Below are positions 21,871-28,396 of a stretch of 64,000 nt of DNA, one piece after another. This stretch comes from Roseibium sp. Its GTDB lineage: Bacteria > Pseudomonadota > Alphaproteobacteria > Rhizobiales > Stappiaceae. The stretch is taken from positions 1-64,000 of the forward strand of contig JAEPNV010000011.1 in the NCBI GenBank assembly GCA_017643215.1, written 5' to 3'. The translations under genes were made by a program, and so were the position numbers. Numbering within the stretch: the first letter of the stretch is position 1; each line of letters starts with the position of its first letter. The notes under the pieces are model-generated. The model was not told the origin of the DNA and did not search any database. It saw nothing but the letters and a program-made list of their open reading frames with translations.

Positions 21871-23670
21871 ATGACCGCCAGAACAAAACCACAACTGCGG
21901 TCCGCCGCCTGGTTCAACAATCCGGACGACCCGGGCATGACCGCGCTTTACATTGAACGGTATTTGAACTTCGGCCTGACCCGGGAAGAACTGCAATCCG
22001 GGAAACCGATCATCGGGATCGCGCAAACCGGTTCGGATCTGTCGCCGTGCAACCGGCATCACCTGGAACTTGCCAAACGGGTGCGTGAAGGCATCCGGGA
22101 AGCGGGCGGCATCTGCTTTGAGTTCCCGGTCCACCCGATCCAGGAAACCGGCAAACGGCCGACCGCAGCGCTTGATCGCAACCTTGCCTATCTCGGACTG
22201 GTTGAGCTTCTTTATGGCTATCCGATCGATGGTGTCGTCCTCACCATCGGCTGCGACAAGACCACCCCGGCCTGCCTGATGGCGGCCGCCACTGTGAACA
22301 TTCCGGCCATCGCATTGTCCGTCGGCCCTATGCTGAACGGCTGGCACAAGGGCGAACGGACCGGTTCGGGAACCATTGTCTGGAAAGCCCGGCAGATGCT
22401 GGCTGCCGGCGAGATTGACTATGACGGCTTCATGGAGCTGGTGGCTTCGTCGGCCCCCTCGGTCGGCTATTGCAACACCATGGGCACCGCGACGACCATG
22501 AACTCGCTCGCCGAAGCCCTCGGCATGCAGTTGCCGGGCGCGGCGGCGATCCCGGCACCTTACCGCGAGCGGAGCCAGATCGCCTATGAAACCGGACGGC
22601 GGATCGTCGACCTCTCTCTTAATGACACCAAACCGTCCGACATCATGACGCGCGCGGCCTTTGAAAACGCCATCGTCGTCAATTCCGCGATCGGTGGATC
22701 CACCAACGCGCCCATCCATCTGAATGCCATCGCCCGTCATCTCGGCGTGCCGCTCGACAACGACGACTGGCAGCGGCTCGGCCTGGAAATCCCCCTTCTT
22801 GTCAATCTTCAGCCGGCGGGCACCTATCTGGGCGAAGACTATTTCCATGCCGGCGGCGTGCCCGCCGTCGTTGGCGAACTCCTCCGCCACGGCAAGCTGC
22901 CGCATCCGGACGCGCCGACCGTGAATGGGCGTTCGATCAGGGAGAATTGCGGCGGCCGGGACATCGAACTTCCAGATGTGATCAAGCCGTACAACGCCCC
23001 GATGAAGGAACGGGCCGGTTTCATCAACCTGAAGGGCAACCTCTTTGACAGCGCGATCATGAAGACAAGCGTCGTGTCGGACGAGTTTCGTGAACGCTAC
23101 TTGTCCAATCCCGACGATCCGGAGGCGTTCGAGGGCCGGGCCATCGTCTTTGAGGGACCTGAAGACTATCATCACAGGATCGACGATCCGTCTTTGGAGA
23201 TCGATGAGACCTGCATGCTGTTCATCCGCGGCACCGGGCCGATCGGATATCCGGGCGGCGCGGAAGTCGTCAACATGCAGCCGCCGGCGGCGTTGATCAA
23301 AAAGGGCGTTCACGCGCTGCCATGCATCGGCGACGGACGGCAGTCGGGAACGTCGGGGTCGCCGTCGATCCTGAATGCATCCCCCGAGGCCGCGGCCATG
23401 GGCGGCCTGGCGCTCATTCAAACCGGCGACCGGGTGCGCATCGACCTGCGCAAGGGAACCGCCGATATCCTGATTTCCGATGAAGAGCTCGCCAAGCGCC
23501 GGGCCGCGCTTGAAGCCAAAGGCGGATTTGCCTACGCGCCCAGCCAGACGCCGTGGCAGGAGATTCAACGGTCGATGGTCGGCCAACTGGACCAGGGAAT
23601 GGTGCTCAAACCCGCCGTCGACTACCAGGACATCGCCCACACGAAAGGCCTGCCGCGCAACAATCACTAA
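21871..23670 (+). CDS. Pentonate dehydratase (IlvD/EDD family, L-arabinonate/D-xylonate type)
   Basis: 599 residues. Three cysteines placed as in the [2Fe-2S] sugar-acid dehydratases are visible: Cys60 ([10 protein letters not shown]), Cys128 ([11 protein letters not shown]) and Cys201 (SVGYCNTMG). The C-terminal [12 protein letters not shown] loop carries the catalytic serine region, and the tail ends [10 protein letters not shown] as in L-arabinonate dehydratases rather than true IlvD. The reaction removes water from a C5 (or C6) aldonate to give a 2-keto-3-deoxy acid. No regulator or aldolase lies directly beside it, but two more sugar-acid-like enzymes follow. The exact sugar acid is not certain. 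Confidence 0.9.
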
Positions 23671-23691
23671 ACCAACGCCGCAATTCGCACT

Positions 23692-23711
23692 TGACGGTTA
23701 CGTAAACGTCA
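23692..23711. promoter_or_regulatory. 20-bp near-perfect palindrome upstream of the SCP2 gene
   Basis: TGACGGTTACGTAAACGTCA matches its reverse complement at 18 of 20 positions. It begins inside TTGACG, a plausible -35 box (23691-23696), so the operator would sit in the promoter spacer as for MerR-family activators. From memory it resembles the sites of LiuR-type MerR regulators of branched-chain acyl-CoA breakdown in proteobacteria. The palindrome is direct observation; the regulator assignment is inference. Confidence 0.55.
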
Positions 23712-23756
23712 TGCATCACATCCGTGATCTTAATTTCAATGGCCGGAGGAATTGCC

Positions 23757-24038
23757 ATGTCACTAGACCAGCTCACCGAAGGTGTTCGATCCAAGGTAGC
23801 CGGAGGCGGAATCGACGAAAGCGTCAAGTTCGATCTCGGCGGCGACGGCACGATTTTTGTCCAGGGATCGGATGTCAGCAACGACGACAAGGACGCCGAT
23901 TGCACCATTGCAATCTCCCCCGACGATCTGGCCGATCTGCTTGCCGGCGAGCTTGCGCCGACCGCGGCCTTCATGGGTGGAAAGATGACTGTGACCGGCG
24001 ACATGAGCGTTGCGATGAAACTCGGCAATATCGTTTAG
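23757..24038 (+). CDS. SCP2-type lipid-binding domain protein
   Basis: 93 residues; the ATG at 23757 follows GGAGGA (23745-23750), an excellent ribosome-binding site. The whole protein is one SCP2 domain (GVRSKVAGGGIDESVKFDLGGDGTIFV ... TAAFMGGKMTVTGDMSVAMKLGNI). SCP2 domains hold hydrophobic ligands such as fatty acyl chains or sterol-like lipids in a cytosolic pocket. The gene has its own palindromic control site and its own terminator, so it is a single-gene unit. The palindrome suggests co-regulation with acyl-CoA catabolism. Confidence 0.9.
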   Translation: MSLDQLTEGVRSKVAGGGIDESVKFDLGGDGTIFVQGSDVSNDDKDADCTIAISPDDLADLLAGELAPTAAFMGGKMTVTGDMSVAMKLGNIV

Positions 24039-24067
24039 CGCGCCGATTGGCCCCTTCTGAGACATGA

Positions 24068-24098
24068 GCGCCGGCCCGTTGGCCGGTGCTTTCGTTTT
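24068..24098 (+). terminator. Rho-independent terminator of the SCP2 gene
   Basis: GCGCCGGCC (24068-24076) pairs with GGCCGGTGC (24081-24089) over 9 positions, with one G-T wobble and a CGTT loop, followed by TTTCGTTTT. It lies 29 bases after the SCP2 stop and before the next gene's start. Confidence 0.85.
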
Positions 24099-24171
24099 CA
24101 TTCCAGGCGCCAAGTCTGCTAGGCTTTGTCAAATGGCTGCACTCAACCGCCGCAGCCTATCGGAGGCCCTC

Positions 24172-25026
24172 ATGCAGACGATCGAGCGCAGACGCGCGCG
24201 TTTTGCCGAGCTCCACGCCCGGCCAAGCGCATTCTTGATGCCCAATCCCTTTGATGTCGGCACCGCGCAAATCCTGGAGGGTCTGCGGTACGAAGCGCTC
24301 GCAACGACAAGCGCCGGACATGCCTTTACCTTGGGATTCAAGGATGCCGAGGGGCTGATCACCCGGGATCTGGCGCTCGCGCATGCGCAGGAAATCGTCA
24401 ATGCGACCACCTTGCCGGTTAACGGCGATCTGGAAAACGGCTTTGGGGACAGCCCCGATGACGTCGTTGAAACCATCAAAGGCGCCATAGACGTCGGTCT
24501 TGCCGGCTGCTCGATCGAGGACTACTCCCAAGATCACGACGCGCCTTACTATCCTTTGGACCTGGCGGTCGAGCGCATCAAGGCTGCGGTCGACGCGAAA
24601 AACCAAGCCGCGCCGGACTTTGTGCTGACGGCGCGCAGCGAAGCGCCGGTCCAGAGCGCGGGGGATCTGAAAAACACCGTCGAACGCCTGACCGCCTTTG
24701 CCGATGCCGGCGCCGACTGCATCTATGCCCCGGGACTGGTTGATCCGGAGCACATTACCAGCGTTTTGTCAGCGATCGACAAACCGCTGAACGTTCTTAG
24801 CGGACGCAAACGCTTCCACCTGACCCGCAAGGAGCTCGCGGATCTCGGCGTGACGCGCGTTTCGATTGGCTCGGGCCTGGCCCGGATTGCCTTTGGGGCG
24901 TTTGTCGCCGCAGCCGAAGACATGAAGGACAGCGGCACGTTCGGCTGTTTTGACCGGGCTTCCGGTTTCACCGAGTTCGATCCTTTCCTCCGCGGACGCA
25001 AGAGCGATCACGCTGAAGGCGGCTAA
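24172..25026 (+). CDS. Isocitrate lyase / PEP mutase family protein
   Basis: 284 residues from the ATG at 24172, preceded by GGAGG at 24162-24166; the frame runs upstream through the terminator hairpin, so an earlier start is unlikely. Family features are LMPNPFDVGTAQIL, the metal-binding DLENGFGDSPDDV, CSIEDYS and LTARSEA. It lacks the KKCGH catalytic loop of true isocitrate lyase, so it belongs to the short PEP mutase/2-methylisocitrate lyase/oxaloacetase group, which makes or breaks C-C or P-C bonds next to a carboxylate. It lies 15 bases before the DenD-like gene and may act in the same pathway. Confidence 0.87.
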   Translation: MQTIERRRARFAELHARPSAFLMPNPFDVGTAQILEGLRYEALATTSAGHAFTLGFKDAEGLITRDLALAHAQEIVNATTLPVNGDLENGFGDSPDDVVETIKGAIDVGLAGCSIEDYSQDHDAPYYPLDLAVERIKAAVDAKNQAAPDFVLTARSEAPVQSAGDLKNTVERLTAFADAGADCIYAPGLVDPEHITSVLSAIDKPLNVLSGRKRFHLTRKELADLGVTRVSIGSGLARIAFGAFVAAAEDMKDSGTFGCFDRASGFTEFDPFLRGRKSDHAEGG

Positions 25027-25041
25027 ACGGGAAAACAATAC

Positions 25042-26016
25042 GTGAAGATTCTGATTATTGGCGCCGCGGGCATGCTTGGCGCAAAACTGGCCGCGCGCCT
25101 TTGCCAGGACGGCCACATCGGCGGCGGTGAGATCACACATCTGTGCCTTGCAGATATCGCCGCCCCTGCAGCATCTCCAGACGCGCCATTTGCAGTCGCG
25201 GCCATCGCCACCGACTTTTCACTCGCAGGTCAAGCCGAGCGCCTGATCGACAATCGGCCGGACGTGATTTTTCACCTTGCCGCCATCGTCTCGGGGGAAG
25301 CGGAAACGGACCTGGAAAAAGGCTACCGGATCAATCTGGATGGTACGCGGTCCTTGTTTGACGCCATTCGCACAGCCGGCGATGACTACCGGCCCCGGGT
25401 CGTGTTCGCCTCGTCGCTCGCGGTCTTTGGCGCGCCGTTCCCGGACACGATCCCCGACGACTTCCATCTGACGCCGCTCACCTCCTACGGCACCCAAAAG
25501 GCCATGTGCGAGTTGCTGTTGGCCGACTACACCCGGCGCGGATTCCTGGACGGGATCGGATTGCGCCTTCCGACCATCGTGGTGCGGCCCGGCCGGCCCA
25601 ACAAGGCGGCCTCCGGCTTCTTCTCCGGCATCATCCGTGAACCCCTCAATGGCGAGGAGGCGGTCTTGCCCGTCTCGGACGACGTTCTTCACTGGATGGC
25701 GAGCCCGCGCGCGGCGGTGGGCTACTTTGCCCATGCTGCCGGTCTCCCGCCTGAGGCCTGCGCGGCGGCCAGAAACATCACGCTGCCAGGGCTGGCCGTG
25801 ACGGTCGCGGAGCAGATCGAAACGCTGCGCAAGATCGGTGGCACCGGTCGGGTGAACCTGATTCGCCGGGAAAAGGACCCGCTTGTGGAAAAGATCGTGT
25901 CCGGCTGGCCGCGCCGCTTTGACCCGAAGACGGCGCTCGGTCTCGGATTTCAGCCGGACGCGACGTTCGAGGCGATCGTGCGCGCCTACATCGAGGATGA
26001 GCAGATCCAGGTTTGA
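25042..26016 (+). CDS. denD: D-erythronate dehydrogenase-like NAD-dependent sugar-acid dehydrogenase
   Basis: 324 residues, GTG start. An extended SDR with NAD-binding GAAGMLGAKLA at the N terminus, SSLAVFG and catalytic SYGTQK (Tyr-x3-Lys), then RLPTIVVRPGRPNKAASGFFSGI, which is characteristic of the DenD family. DenD oxidises D-erythronate (and related C4 acids) to a 2-keto acid in four-carbon sugar-acid catabolism. The other den-pathway genes (kinase, decarboxylase/isomerases) are not in the window, so the true substrate could differ. Its 3' end overlaps the convergent citrate synthase homologue by 31 bases. Confidence 0.85.
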   Translation: MKILIIGAAGMLGAKLAARLCQDGHIGGGEITHLCLADIAAPAASPDAPFAVAAIATDFSLAGQAERLIDNRPDVIFHLAAIVSGEAETDLEKGYRINLDGTRSLFDAIRTAGDDYRPRVVFASSLAVFGAPFPDTIPDDFHLTPLTSYGTQKAMCELLLADYTRRGFLDGIGLRLPTIVVRPGRPNKAASGFFSGIIREPLNGEEAVLPVSDDVLHWMASPRAAVGYFAHAAGLPPEACAAARNITLPGLAVTVAEQIETLRKIGGTGRVNLIRREKDPLVEKIVSGWPRRFDPKTALGLGFQPDATFEAIVRAYIEDEQIQV

Positions 26017-27197
26017 CCGGATGACCTGGGGCGCGCGCCCACATAGGCCGCGCGGGGCCGGATCTGATCCGGAGACCCATACTGTTCCAGGGCATGGGCG
26101 ATCCATCCGACCATACGCCCTGAGCAGAACAGGATCTTGGCGGCATCCGGCGGCAGATCATAAGCCTTTTGGAGAACAGTCAGAGCAAAGTCGATGTTCG
26201 GTGCAAGGCCATAAAGGTCCTCGGCCGTTTCGATCAGCGCTGGAAGTGCACGGACCACCGCATTGTCCGGTGCGACCTCCCCGATAATGGCCAGAAGGCG
26301 ATCGGCGCGCGGATCGCGGTCGCGATAGATCCGGTGGCCGAAACCCGGAAGGGTCTCACCGCGGGCAAGGCGCCCGGCGAGCGTTCGATGGGCATCTTCT
26401 GGTGTTTTGATATCCGACAGCCAGGCCGCCACGCGGTCCGGCGCCGCACCATGGCGGGGACCTGAAAACGCTCCAAGTCCGGAAAGAAGCGCTGCATGCA
26501 GCGGTGCCCGCGTCGACGCCGCGCACCGGACGGCAAACGCGCTGGTGTTCAGTTCATGATCGGCGCACAGCACCAGCGCTGCCCGGACAACATCGGCGTG
26601 GCCGGTGGCCACGCCCCAAGCACCGGAAAGCTGCATATGGATCGGATCTGTGGCGGGTTGGCCGCCCAGGAGCGCGGAGAGCCCGTAGCGCAGCAACAAC
26701 GCGCCCTTCTTCGGCAGAAGTTTTCCGGACAATGTCAACGCTGCCCGGTCCTGGAGCGGCCACGCCGCCAGCGCCATCGTCAGCCGGTCAATGGCACTGA
26801 GCCCATTCGGGAGGACTGGAGCACCACCTGGCGCGTCTTGGGCAAAAGGATCGCTGTCGCAGTCCCAAAGCAACGTAGCAACAGCTTCCAGGGAGGATGT
26901 CCGGGCCAGATCCCGCGCCGGCCGGCCCCGGTAGACCGGCCCGACTTCTTGTGAAATCAGGGTTAGCCGGGTTTCCAGCACCCGCTCGCCTTGGCTGATG
27001 CCGGTGGCGGCAGACCCCGCATCCTCCGATTTGTTTGCCAGCAGTGTTCGCACATCCGACGCATCATAGCGCCGCTGTTTGCCTGGTCCTTTCACCGAGC
27101 GGATGATCCCGCGGCTGACATAGGCATAGAGCGTTGCCGGCTGGACACCCAATTCGGCCGCGGCCTCGCGCGCGGAGAGGTATATCGGCTCTGACAT
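25986..27197 (-). CDS. Citrate synthase homologue with N-terminal MerR/excisionase-type DNA-binding domain
   Basis: 403 residues from the ATG at 27197; upstream codons run into the AT-rich control region. Residues 5-52 form a helix-turn-helix (YLSAREAAAELGVQPATLYAYVSRG, then GKQRRYDASDVRTLL). Residues 75-395 are a citrate synthase fold with the catalytic triad in place: His214 (DHELNTS), His288 (GFGHRIY) and Asp336 (NIDF). The usual GPLHGGAN loop is changed to GPRHGAAPD. This design suggests a regulator that senses acyl-CoA/oxaloacetate-like ligands or an enzyme that controls its own operon. A second homologue without the HTH is divergent, 74 bases away, with TTGAT...ATCAA dyads between them. 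Confidence 0.9.
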   Translation of the reverse strand: MSEPIYLSAREAAAELGVQPATLYAYVSRGIIRSVKGPGKQRRYDASDVRTLLANKSEDAGSAATGISQGERVLETRLTLISQEVGPVYRGRPARDLARTSSLEAVATLLWDCDSDPFAQDAPGGAPVLPNGLSAIDRLTMALAAWPLQDRAALTLSGKLLPKKGALLLRYGLSALLGGQPATDPIHMQLSGAWGVATGHADVVRAALVLCADHELNTSAFAVRCAASTRAPLHAALLSGLGAFSGPRHGAAPDRVAAWLSDIKTPEDAHRTLAGRLARGETLPGFGHRIYRDRDPRADRLLAIIGEVAPDNAVVRALPALIETAEDLYGLAPNIDFALTVLQKAYDLPPDAAKILFCSGRMVGWIAHALEQYGSPDQIRPRAAYVGARPRSSGQTWICSSSM

Positions 27198-27200
27198 ATA

Positions 27201-27232
27201 TTGATTGTATTTATCAATATTGATTTTATCAA
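27201..27232. promoter_or_regulatory. Tandem dyads between the two citrate synthase homologues, candidate operator
   Basis: TTGAT (27201-27205) pairs with ATCAA (27213-27217), and TTGAT (27220-27224) pairs with ATCAA (27228-27232) around TTT. Both are embedded in the repeated string ATATTGATT. The AT-rich 74-base gap must contain both divergent promoters. The obvious candidate to bind it is the HTH-citrate synthase protein encoded on its left. The dyads are seen; binding is inferred. Confidence 0.55.
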
Positions 27233-27271
27233 GATCGACGTCTCTTCTTGGCCGATCAGAAGGAGATGATG

Positions 27272-28396
27272 ATGACACAGGCTCTCAATCCGGCGACCGT
27301 CGCCGCCCAAACGGACACCGGTCTGGAAGGGGTCGTTGCGGCCCACACAAAGCTGAGCACCGTGGATGGCGCGGCGGGTGAATTGATCCTGCGCGGCCTC
27401 CGGATCGAGCACATGGCCGGGCAGATGCCATTCGAGGCGGCTGTCGCCCATCTTTGGCAGGACACCGTCCACCTTGAGACCGGCAAGGATCCGGACGCCC
27501 TTCGCGTAGCCTTCGGCGCCGCGCGCGATTCGGCCGTGTCCGCCCTGCCGGCGATGACGGCCGGATCACCGGCCTTGTCCCCCTTTGACCGCGTGCAGAT
27601 CGGCATCGCCGCGCTCGCGCTCGACGATGGTCTTCCCGATGCCGTCCAGATCACCGGCGCCATGCCGGTTCTCGTCGCCGCGGCGGCGCGGATCGGCCTG
27701 GGAAAAGAACCGATTGCCCCCGATCCGGCGCTCGGTTTTGCCGATGATCTTCTCAGGATGGTCTCGGGTGCCCCAGCGCCGGACTGGGCCGTGGATGCGC
27801 TTGACCGGTATCTGGTAACCGTGCTCGATCATGGCCTCAATGCCTCCACCTTCGCCGCGCGCGTGATCGCGTCGACACGGGCCGATATGCGCGATGCGGT
27901 CCTTGGCGCCATGTGCGCCTTGAAAGGCCCGCTGCATGGCGGCGCGCCGGGGCCGGTCCTGGACATGCTCGACGCGGCAGGCAGTCCCGAAAATGCCGCT
28001 GGCTGGATCGACCGGGAACTTCAGGCGGGCCGGCGGATCATGGGCTTTGGCCACCGGATCTACCGGACACGGGACCCCCGGGCCGATGTCCTGAAGGCCG
28101 GTGTCCGGACGCTGCCCCGCTCCGACCGGCTTATCCTGGCCGAAGCCGTGGAAAAGGCCGCTCTCAAGGCGTTACGAGCGGCGAAACCGGACCGGGTACT
28201 GGATACGAATGTGGAGTTCTACACCGCGATCCTGCTTGACGGGATCGGTGTCGACCGCGCGCTGTTCACGCCGCTCTTTGCGGCCGGCCGGACCGCCGGA
28301 TGGTGCGCCCATGTCATCGAGCAGCAGCAAACCGGCAAGCTGATCCGTCCCGCCTCGGTCTATATCGGGCCCGACCCGGCACCTTCCGGCACCTGA
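27272..28396 (+). CDS. Citrate synthase homologue with Glu in place of the catalytic Asp
   Basis: 374 residues from the third of three consecutive ATGs, which sits best behind AGGAG (27261-27265); 27266 or 27269 are alternatives. It begins GLEGVVAAHTKLSTVDG as citrate/2-methylcitrate synthases do. It has His187 (DHGLNAS), the intact loop KGPLHGGAP (His222) and His261 (GFGHRIY). The third catalytic residue, normally Asp in NVDF, is Glu315 (NVEFYTA). It could be a specialised synthase for another acyl-CoA or keto acid, or a partner subunit of the divergent HTH protein. A GMC oxidoreductase gene converges on it from the right. Confidence 0.88.
   Translation: MTQALNPATVAAQTDTGLEGVVAAHTKLSTVDGAAGELILRGLRIEHMAGQMPFEAAVAHLWQDTVHLETGKDPDALRVAFGAARDSAVSALPAMTAGSPALSPFDRVQIGIAALALDDGLPDAVQITGAMPVLVAAAARIGLGKEPIAPDPALGFADDLLRMVSGAPAPDWAVDALDRYLVTVLDHGLNASTFAARVIASTRADMRDAVLGAMCALKGPLHGGAPGPVLDMLDAAGSPENAAGWIDRELQAGRRIMGFGHRIYRTRDPRADVLKAGVRTLPRSDRLILAEAVEKAALKALRAAKPDRVLDTNVEFYTAILLDGIGVDRALFTPLFAAGRTAGWCAHVIEQQQTGKLIRPASVYIGPDPAPSGT

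Follow-up and report, generated by a model that had tools for sequence, protein, structure and literature searches.

What is a DNA-binding head doing on a citrate synthase, and why does the gene of this protein stand back to back with that of a second citrate synthase? The question is posed by a locus of Roseibium sp. (contig JAEPNV010000011.1, positions 1 to 64,000; this whole stretch of 64,000 nucleotides is called the window). The minus strand codes, at positions 25986-27197, for a protein of 403 amino acids from ATG 27197 in which a winged helix-turn-helix (HTH) is joined to a full citrate-synthase (CS) fold, named here HTH-CS. After a gap of 74 bp the plus strand codes, at positions 27272-28396, for a citrate synthase of 374 amino acids from ATG 27272 in which Glu315 (GAG, 28214-28216) replaces the catalytic Asp, named here the Glu-type partner. 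Both open reading frames are found where a preliminary description of the locus, made from the DNA sequence alone, had placed them. The two ATG codons are the likely starts, an in-frame GTG upstream (27278) being an alternative for HTH-CS that yields 430 amino acids.

HTH-CS is best read as belonging to a family, so far unrecognised, of transcription factors that derive from an enzyme, regulate their own genes and sense oxaloacetate, citrate or 2-methylcitrate. That it is a one-component transcriptional regulator with citrate synthase as effector domain is given a probability of about 0.8. The basis is in silico and consists of the domain fusion, a conserved divergent arrangement, an element that tracks HTH-CS, a retained oxaloacetate pocket and recurrent change of target, from which we infer DNA binding, the ligand, the sign of regulation and allostery.

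Domains and active site of HTH-CS

The union of a MerR/excisionase-type HTH with a citrate synthase, proposed in the preliminary description, is borne out by Pfam, both domains exceeding their cut-offs: Citrate_synt scores 201.7 bits against the cut-off of 27 of superfamily PF00285, HTH_17 39.6 (27) and MerR_1 28.6 (21.6). The score with PF00376, 27.4, is slightly below the cut-off of 28.2. The N-terminal winged HTH occupies residues ~5-60 (27018-27185), as defined by Pfam and by the secondary structure of an AlphaFold2 model, and the CS-like domain residues ~72-390 (26028-26984). In this model (pLDDT 89.0, pTM 0.77; input alignment of 26 rows, 10 of them partner-type sequences) the HTH at residues 5-60 has the order strand-helix-helix-strand-strand-helix, with wing-like strands, and is followed by a complete citrate-synthase fold. 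The best fold match is Pseudomonas aeruginosa PrpC (6s6f; Z 34.9, 335 residues aligned, rmsd 4.3); the structural rows of VIA-align span no HTH residues. The HTH block is among the best-conserved parts of the protein and its TLYAYVSRG segment shows little or no variation across 13 sequences.

The CS-like domain retains His214, His249, His288, Arg297, Asp336, Arg361 and Arg380 (numbered from ATG 27197, with roles assigned after pig citrate synthase). His249 (GPRHG), His288 (GFGHR) and Asp336 (PNIDF) correspond to His274, His320 and Asp375 of the pig enzyme, and His214 (ADHEL) to its His238, an oxaloacetate ligand. The triad announced earlier is intact, but its members are His249, His288 and Asp336; His214, listed in place of His249, is a binding His that was taken for a catalytic one. 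Among 109 HTH-CS proteins the residues of the oxaloacetate site are kept in 108 (His214), 109 (His249), 109 (Arg297), 108 (Arg361) and 109 (Arg380), catalytic Asp336 in all 109 and His288 in 102. This second catalytic His is lost (Gln, Asn, Ala, Met or Ile) in L018, L049, L081, L095, L118, L130 and L133, seven members that are, by their sequences, candidates for natural pure sensors; L081 belongs to the window's own family.

Arg324 of pig citrate synthase holds the CoA phosphates. The equivalent position is basic (Arg/Lys) in 83 of 83 partners versus 21 of the 109 HTH-CS proteins, the other 88 having lost the basic residue (Pro in 67), and an Arg follows the His of GFGH in 27 of the 109. The window protein retains Arg at the CoA-phosphate position, so that the case against CoA binding is one made at the level of the family and is weaker for the window copy. 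The ligands first proposed were acetyl- or propionyl-CoA and oxaloacetate: the CoA esters lose ground family-wide, and either oxaloacetate or a citrate-like product is more probable. The changed loop GPRHGAAPD of HTH-CS, against GPLHGGAPG in the partner, is present as described, and GPRHG is one form of several, the variable residue of GP-x-HG being Leu in 47, Arg in 45 and Lys in 10 of the 109 proteins.

A twofold element upstream of HTH-CS

The gap between the two genes begins with a conserved element, ATATTGATTGTATTTATCAATATTGA (27198-27223), which contains the proposed operator TTGAT-N7-ATCAA (27201-27217), an inverted repeat ATATTGAT/ATCAATAT. A scan of the DNA upstream of 108 HTH-CS genes looked for every 5-base arm whose reverse complement comes 0-12 bases further on (truncated L061 was left out of the dyad scans and L060, with 3 bp upstream, out of the spacing count). 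The top dyad is TTGAT/ATCAA, present in 84 of the 108 regions against 0.7 expected from shuffles. Its spacing is N7 in 64 of 76 regions from Pseudomonadota and Deinococcota, while in 18 of 31 from Actinomycetota the two arms start 5-17 bases apart, most commonly 8 (N3). No dyad at start-to-start 5-17 occurs in 3004 control tiles taken elsewhere in the same loci, nor upstream of 10 other citrate-synthase frames, where the regions precede the open frame rather than a proven start. Forty loci (25 from Pseudomonadota, 15 actinobacterial) were fetched once the motif had been fixed; they are not independent of the first set and several are close relatives. The N7 form is present in 16 of these 25 Pseudomonadota loci, and in 16 of the 17 that score above 300 bits.

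In 12 related loci, 22 of the 29 columns made by the element and the adjoining ATG are invariant, and the mean frequency of the commonest base is 0.974 in this 29-bp stretch versus 0.583 at the third codon positions just inside the gene. Conservation of the motif as coding sequence for INIDKYNQYM was considered and rejected, since its would-be third codon positions reach 0.954 versus 0.583 at real ones. An in-frame stop separates the motif from the HTH-CS frame in 23 of 64 loci, which also argues that its conservation is not merely coding; the frame is open in Stappiaceae-type loci.

The predicted operator is overlapped by a sigma-70-like promoter of HTH-CS, TTGATA-17-TACAAT (27204-27232, minus strand). 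This is the sole promoter-like site in 27050-27420, with 10 of 12 matches against a shuffle mean of 0.2, and inspection of the 12 related loci by eye finds the TTG of the -35 box in every one of them and TACAAT in 11. As the -10 box ends 6 nt ahead of ATG 27197 and operator and promoter overlap, the HTH-CS transcript is likely leaderless and under direct autocontrol. A conserved operator-like site is found, as far as sequence can tell, at the promoter supposed to be controlled, more weakly so in Actinomycetota. A second, shorter dyad with N3 spacing, TTGATTTTATCAA, lies at 27220-27232, and the partner gene has a Shine-Dalgarno sequence AAGGAG at 27260-27265 (plus strand). The Roseibium genome contains the 12-base form ATTGAT-N7-ATCAAT twice. 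A wider regulon in this genome was rejected: the second site (L138) lies inside a DctM transporter gene, does not have the ATTGA extension and is taken as chance.

Spread of the family and the genes it faces

HTH-CS occurs in Pseudomonadota, Actinomycetota and Deinococcota. It was detected in 53 of 398 genomes of the window's phylum (E<=1e-50, own genome counted), in 33 of 289 Alphaproteobacteria-level genomes, the class of the window (rows read), in at least 44 of 296 genomes from the class of Humibacter (centre genome counted; five rows checked) and also on a Deinococcus plasmid. Annotated plasmid matches are named citrate synthase, citrate/2-methylcitrate synthase or citrate synthase family protein. 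In a tree of CS domains, built without Bacillus subtilis or mycobacterial CitA, all 109 HTH-CS proteins fall in one clade (support 1.0; FastTree local values). Its sister clade is made up of 82 Glu-type partners (0.96), and the two together split from GltA and PrpC (1.0).

A check on how widely the pair is conserved found a citrate synthase divergent from HTH-CS in 83 of 109 loci, more than expected by chance; 82 are of the Glu-type clade and one, in L055, is of GltA type. The same arrangement is seen in 20 of the 40 loci fetched later. Same-region duplicates (L002-L004, L032, L062-L073) and the frameshifted L014 were removed before counting. The window's partner (Citrate_synt 314.3 bits) passes the cut-off of 332 of NF009005 with 395 and is a member of the CitA/PRK12350 group, which includes solved chains from B. 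subtilis (2c6x), Mycobacterium tuberculosis (8gi7 series) and M. bovis (6wgy) and has the Glu in common. Alignments place TNVEF at the position of Glu315 in the partner's closest solved relatives, B. subtilis citrate synthase 1 (2c6x) and M. tuberculosis CitA (chains 8gmf and 8gll), and Glu is found there in 81 of the 82 partner sequences that have a letter at this column, the exception being GltA-type L055. The replacement of the catalytic Asp singled out in the preliminary description is real, but it is a trait of the subfamily and not a local oddity. A dead partner was rejected on the same data; as a lineage trait, the Glu gives no reason to regard the partner as defective. HTH-CS differs from this group, whose solved chains of 363-380 residues are too short for an HTH: it retains the Asp, and with NF009005 it scores 169.4 bits, over residues 224-420 only, and stays under the cut-off.

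Other genes can take the place of the citrate synthase. Of 17 Pseudomonadota/Deinococcota loci that lack a Glu-type partner, 14 retain the dyad, 13 of them as N7; the predicted operator tracks HTH-CS and not the citrate synthase. One clade (L139-L142 and L172; support 1.0), all five of whose members have the N7 site, faces genes of the methylcitrate cycle. L139-L142 have prpB, identified in all four by curated model, and prpC, identified in two by model and in the other two by tblastn. L141 (model) and L142 (tblastn) also have acnD and prpF, and in L172 acnD lies directly opposite (tblastn). A CoA-transferase III lies opposite HTH-CS in seven loci, six of them profile-checked, 2-hydroxyacid dehydrogenases in L026 and L168, and methyltransferases in L054 and L165. 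HMGL-type, homocitrate-synthase-like enzymes are found opposite HTH-CS in L025 and L110 (by profile, under every curated cut-off) and in L109 and L123 (by tblastn). These NifV/LeuA-like condensing enzymes occupy the usual place of the Glu-type citrate synthase and are possibly a non-homologous citrate or homocitrate synthase.

The class of target follows the HTH-CS tree, with 14 changes versus at least 25 in 200 shuffles, and has switched repeatedly. The test comprised 148 tips, 18 of them unlabelled; tips without label include L049, L095, L156-L160, L162-L164, L171 and the Streptomyces-like L115, L116, L121 and L181, for which no partner was found. The Streptomyces-like L128, whose partner is broken, was labelled Glu-type. 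The labels of L167 and L170 were given by eye without profile confirmation, that of L030 comes from annotation, those of L109, L123 and L172 rest on tblastn, and those of L057 and L059 are profile-confirmed.

DUF2332, a domain of unknown function, is encoded near HTH-CS in the alphaproteobacterial L027, L056, L057 (where the DUF2332 part begins ~600 bp away) and L059, and as the second gene, after that of an MDMPI_N protein, in L129/L151 (an actinomycete); its position beside HTH-CS gives a lead on its role. Weak-scoring HTH-CS genes have as neighbours a tricarboxylate-transporter receptor (L162), MipA (L163) and cation-efflux genes (L156, L157), and a cation-efflux gene also stands beside the strong-scoring, motif-less L095; these neighbours may be there by chance only. 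In L049 the frame opposite HTH-CS has no match in Pfam.

The D-erythronate dehydrogenase gene of the window (NF043036 375.7, above the cut-off of 325) converges with that of HTH-CS, their 3' ends overlapping by ~31 bp (25986-26016). It is the last of four consecutive plus-strand genes (21871-26016), preceded by those of an ilvD-like dehydratase (NF009560, 1044.7 bits), an SCP2 domain protein and a PEP-mutase/isocitrate-lyase family protein. Pieces of this block adjoin the citrate-synthase pair in several Roseibium-type loci, and the block may encode the breakdown of a sugar acid, with the product of the lyase supplying the citrate synthase. A genome search found one further citrate synthase in the window's genome, on a different contig.

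Roseibium hamelinense (L014), known here from one draft genome searched in full with the HTH-CS model, keeps the ilvD, SCP2 and PEP-mutase neighbours. Its HTH-CS gene is broken into two frames, half of the operator dyad is gone and there is no Glu-type gene beside HTH-CS; against the Glu-type model the two other synthase-like matches of this genome score just 204 and 85 bits. HTH-CS, its target and the predicted operator behave as one unit in this apparent decay.

Proposed mode of action and rival explanations

A twofold operator fits a dimer, and citrate synthases work as dimers whose closure around oxaloacetate offers a natural switch. Dimerisation of the CS domain would set the two N-terminal winged HTHs on the site TTGAT-N7-ATCAA between the divergent genes. 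Because this site overlaps the HTH-CS promoter in the window, HTH-CS should control its own gene and the gene opposite, that of the Glu-type citrate synthase, most simply as a repressor. A ligand in the active site would drive the open-to-closed movement and alter DNA binding; oxaloacetate or citrate is favoured for the window protein, and 2-methylcitrate is the obvious candidate for the members at methylcitrate operons. The metabolite-sensing repressor of the preliminary description is supported as far as the regulator is concerned, the conserved operator-like dyad accompanying HTH-CS in Pseudomonadota and Deinococcota with or without a citrate synthase opposite; that the protein represses is guessed from the position of the operator across the promoter.

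Several observations weigh against a sensor-regulator of this kind. The N7 form is missing from 12 of the 76 Pseudomonadota/Deinococcota loci and from all 31 actinobacterial loci, 13 of which have no dyad at start-to-start 5-17. L095 and L049 are strong HTH-CS matches without an N7 site. Among the loci fetched later, the dyad is absent from the low scorers (<270 bits) L156-L160, L163 and L164 and differently spaced in L162, L171 has no N7 dyad despite a score above 300 bits, and the dyad is present in only 6 of the 15 actinobacterial loci, never as N7 (L190 is truncated). The loci are phylogenetically non-independent and were selected by score. Retention of both Asp336 and His288 exceeds the obvious need of a pure sensor, and catalysis may persist. 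Nor is 2-methylcitrate the signal of every other prp regulator: the one of Xanthomonas citri is reported to be unresponsive to it, and M. tuberculosis PrpR to use propionyl-CoA (PMC12153269, PMC9765439).

Enzymes such as PutA and BirA couple their catalytic state to transcription, and HTH-CS could likewise still be an active citrate/methylcitrate synthase that also binds its own operator. This is a tentative possibility, whose probability overlaps with that of the sensor-regulator, the confidences given here not being exclusive. The catalytic residues are what speaks for it, Asp and His249 being present in 109 of 109 proteins and His288 in 102, and the window copy itself keeps the triad, the CoA-contacting Arg and, in the model, a complete CS fold. 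Against this stand the loss of the CoA-phosphate Arg/Lys in 88 relatives, the small number with Arg after the GFGH His and the seven proteins, L081 included, that have lost His288. The idea keeps its weight because Asp336 is never lost, which points to citrate-like binding as a minimum, and perhaps to residual catalysis as well.

The mixed enzyme envisaged in the preliminary description, a heteromer with the Glu-type synthase in which HTH-CS is the regulatory or DNA-tethering subunit, is unlikely. It would account for the frequent adjacency of the two genes, for the sister relationship of their families and for the joint decay of pair and operator in R. hamelinense. Two subunits of one enzyme should, however, always occur together, and other loci have non-CS genes opposite HTH-CS. 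In addition, 17 Pseudomonadota genomes were chosen for an HTH-CS with no partner next to it. In 16 of them no synthase exceeds 238 bits with the Glu-type model (range 201-238, against about 379-611 for full-length partners of this type), and G040, an ambiguous case, has one at 268 bits. Four actinobacterial genomes were picked in the same way: three carry a match of 309-341 bits at another place and G775 carries none. The occurrence of HTH-CS in genomes without a Glu-type partner makes an obligate heteromer unlikely; an optional one is conceivable. More improbable still is an ordinary secondary citrate synthase with an incidental HTH-like head and an incidental dyad that is, for example, merely a promoter. 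The names carried by annotated plasmid matches and the overlap of the element with promoter-like sequence would suit it. The strong conservation of the HTH block, the reappearance of one twofold element across several classes and next to genes that are unrelated, and its absence from the control tiles and from the other CS upstream regions do not.

For the sensor-regulator, the odds tilt slightly towards a broader history: a citrate synthase turned once into a transcription factor, spread over three phyla or more with its TTGAT half-site hardly altered, and repeatedly changed targets (citrate synthase, methylcitrate cycle, homocitrate-synthase-like enzymes, CoA-transferases and others) without giving up the oxaloacetate/citrate pocket. 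HTH-CS would then be a widespread sensor of citrate-type acids that is annotated "citrate synthase".

Relation to known regulators and significance

HTH-CS resembles the MerR family in its MerR_1/HTH_17 winged HTH and in the predicted operator lying, in the window, within the promoter spacer. It differs in having a full CS fold from about residue 60 instead of a coiled coil and a small effector domain, and in a promoter spacer of 17 bp where MerR promoters have 19-20 bp. The nearest system in kind is BzdR, a regulator whose HTH is reported to be coupled to an effector domain resembling shikimate kinase (PMC3602430). HTH-CS likewise combines a DNA-binding domain with an enzyme-like domain. The enzyme fold is another one, HTH-CS faces many alternative targets, and loss of activity is, according to the same source, essential for BzdR, whereas HTH-CS keeps catalytic residues (PMC3602430).

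The PrpR types named in the available excerpts are Fis/sigma-54, GntR and mycobacterial 4Fe4S regulators, and 2-methylcitrate is given there as coactivator of the Salmonella enterica and Corynebacterium glutamicum PrpR (PMC9765439, PMC12153269). One HTH-CS clade is divergent from prpB or acnD, where a PrpR would sit; the window protein nevertheless has only HTH_17/MerR and Citrate_synt in Pfam, with no AAA+/Fis or GntR domain. By its predicted architecture HTH-CS is neither a MerR protein nor any named PrpR type. Excerpts on Streptomyces coelicolor mention the putative citrate synthases sco5831/sco5832 (citA3/citA4) with an MtrA-bound site between them (PMC12323332; also PMC9739823); judged by arrangement alone, this pair may be a member of the HTH-CS family. 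No description of a DNA-binding citrate-synthase regulator was found in a library of open-licence PMC papers.

The recurring unit of HTH-CS protein and predicted site adjoins citrate synthase or propionate-burning genes in other bacteria. Apart from a few models, little seems to be known of how bacteria gauge oxaloacetate and citrate for entry into the tricarboxylic acid and methylcitrate cycles. If the regulator reading is true, a set of proteins annotated as citrate synthases would be regulators, and metabolic models would count enzymes that perhaps do not exist. The family would also offer biosensors for citrate-like acids whose operator is known, and it would provide a clean case of an enzyme turned into a transcription factor, with its sister enzyme next door as the usual target.

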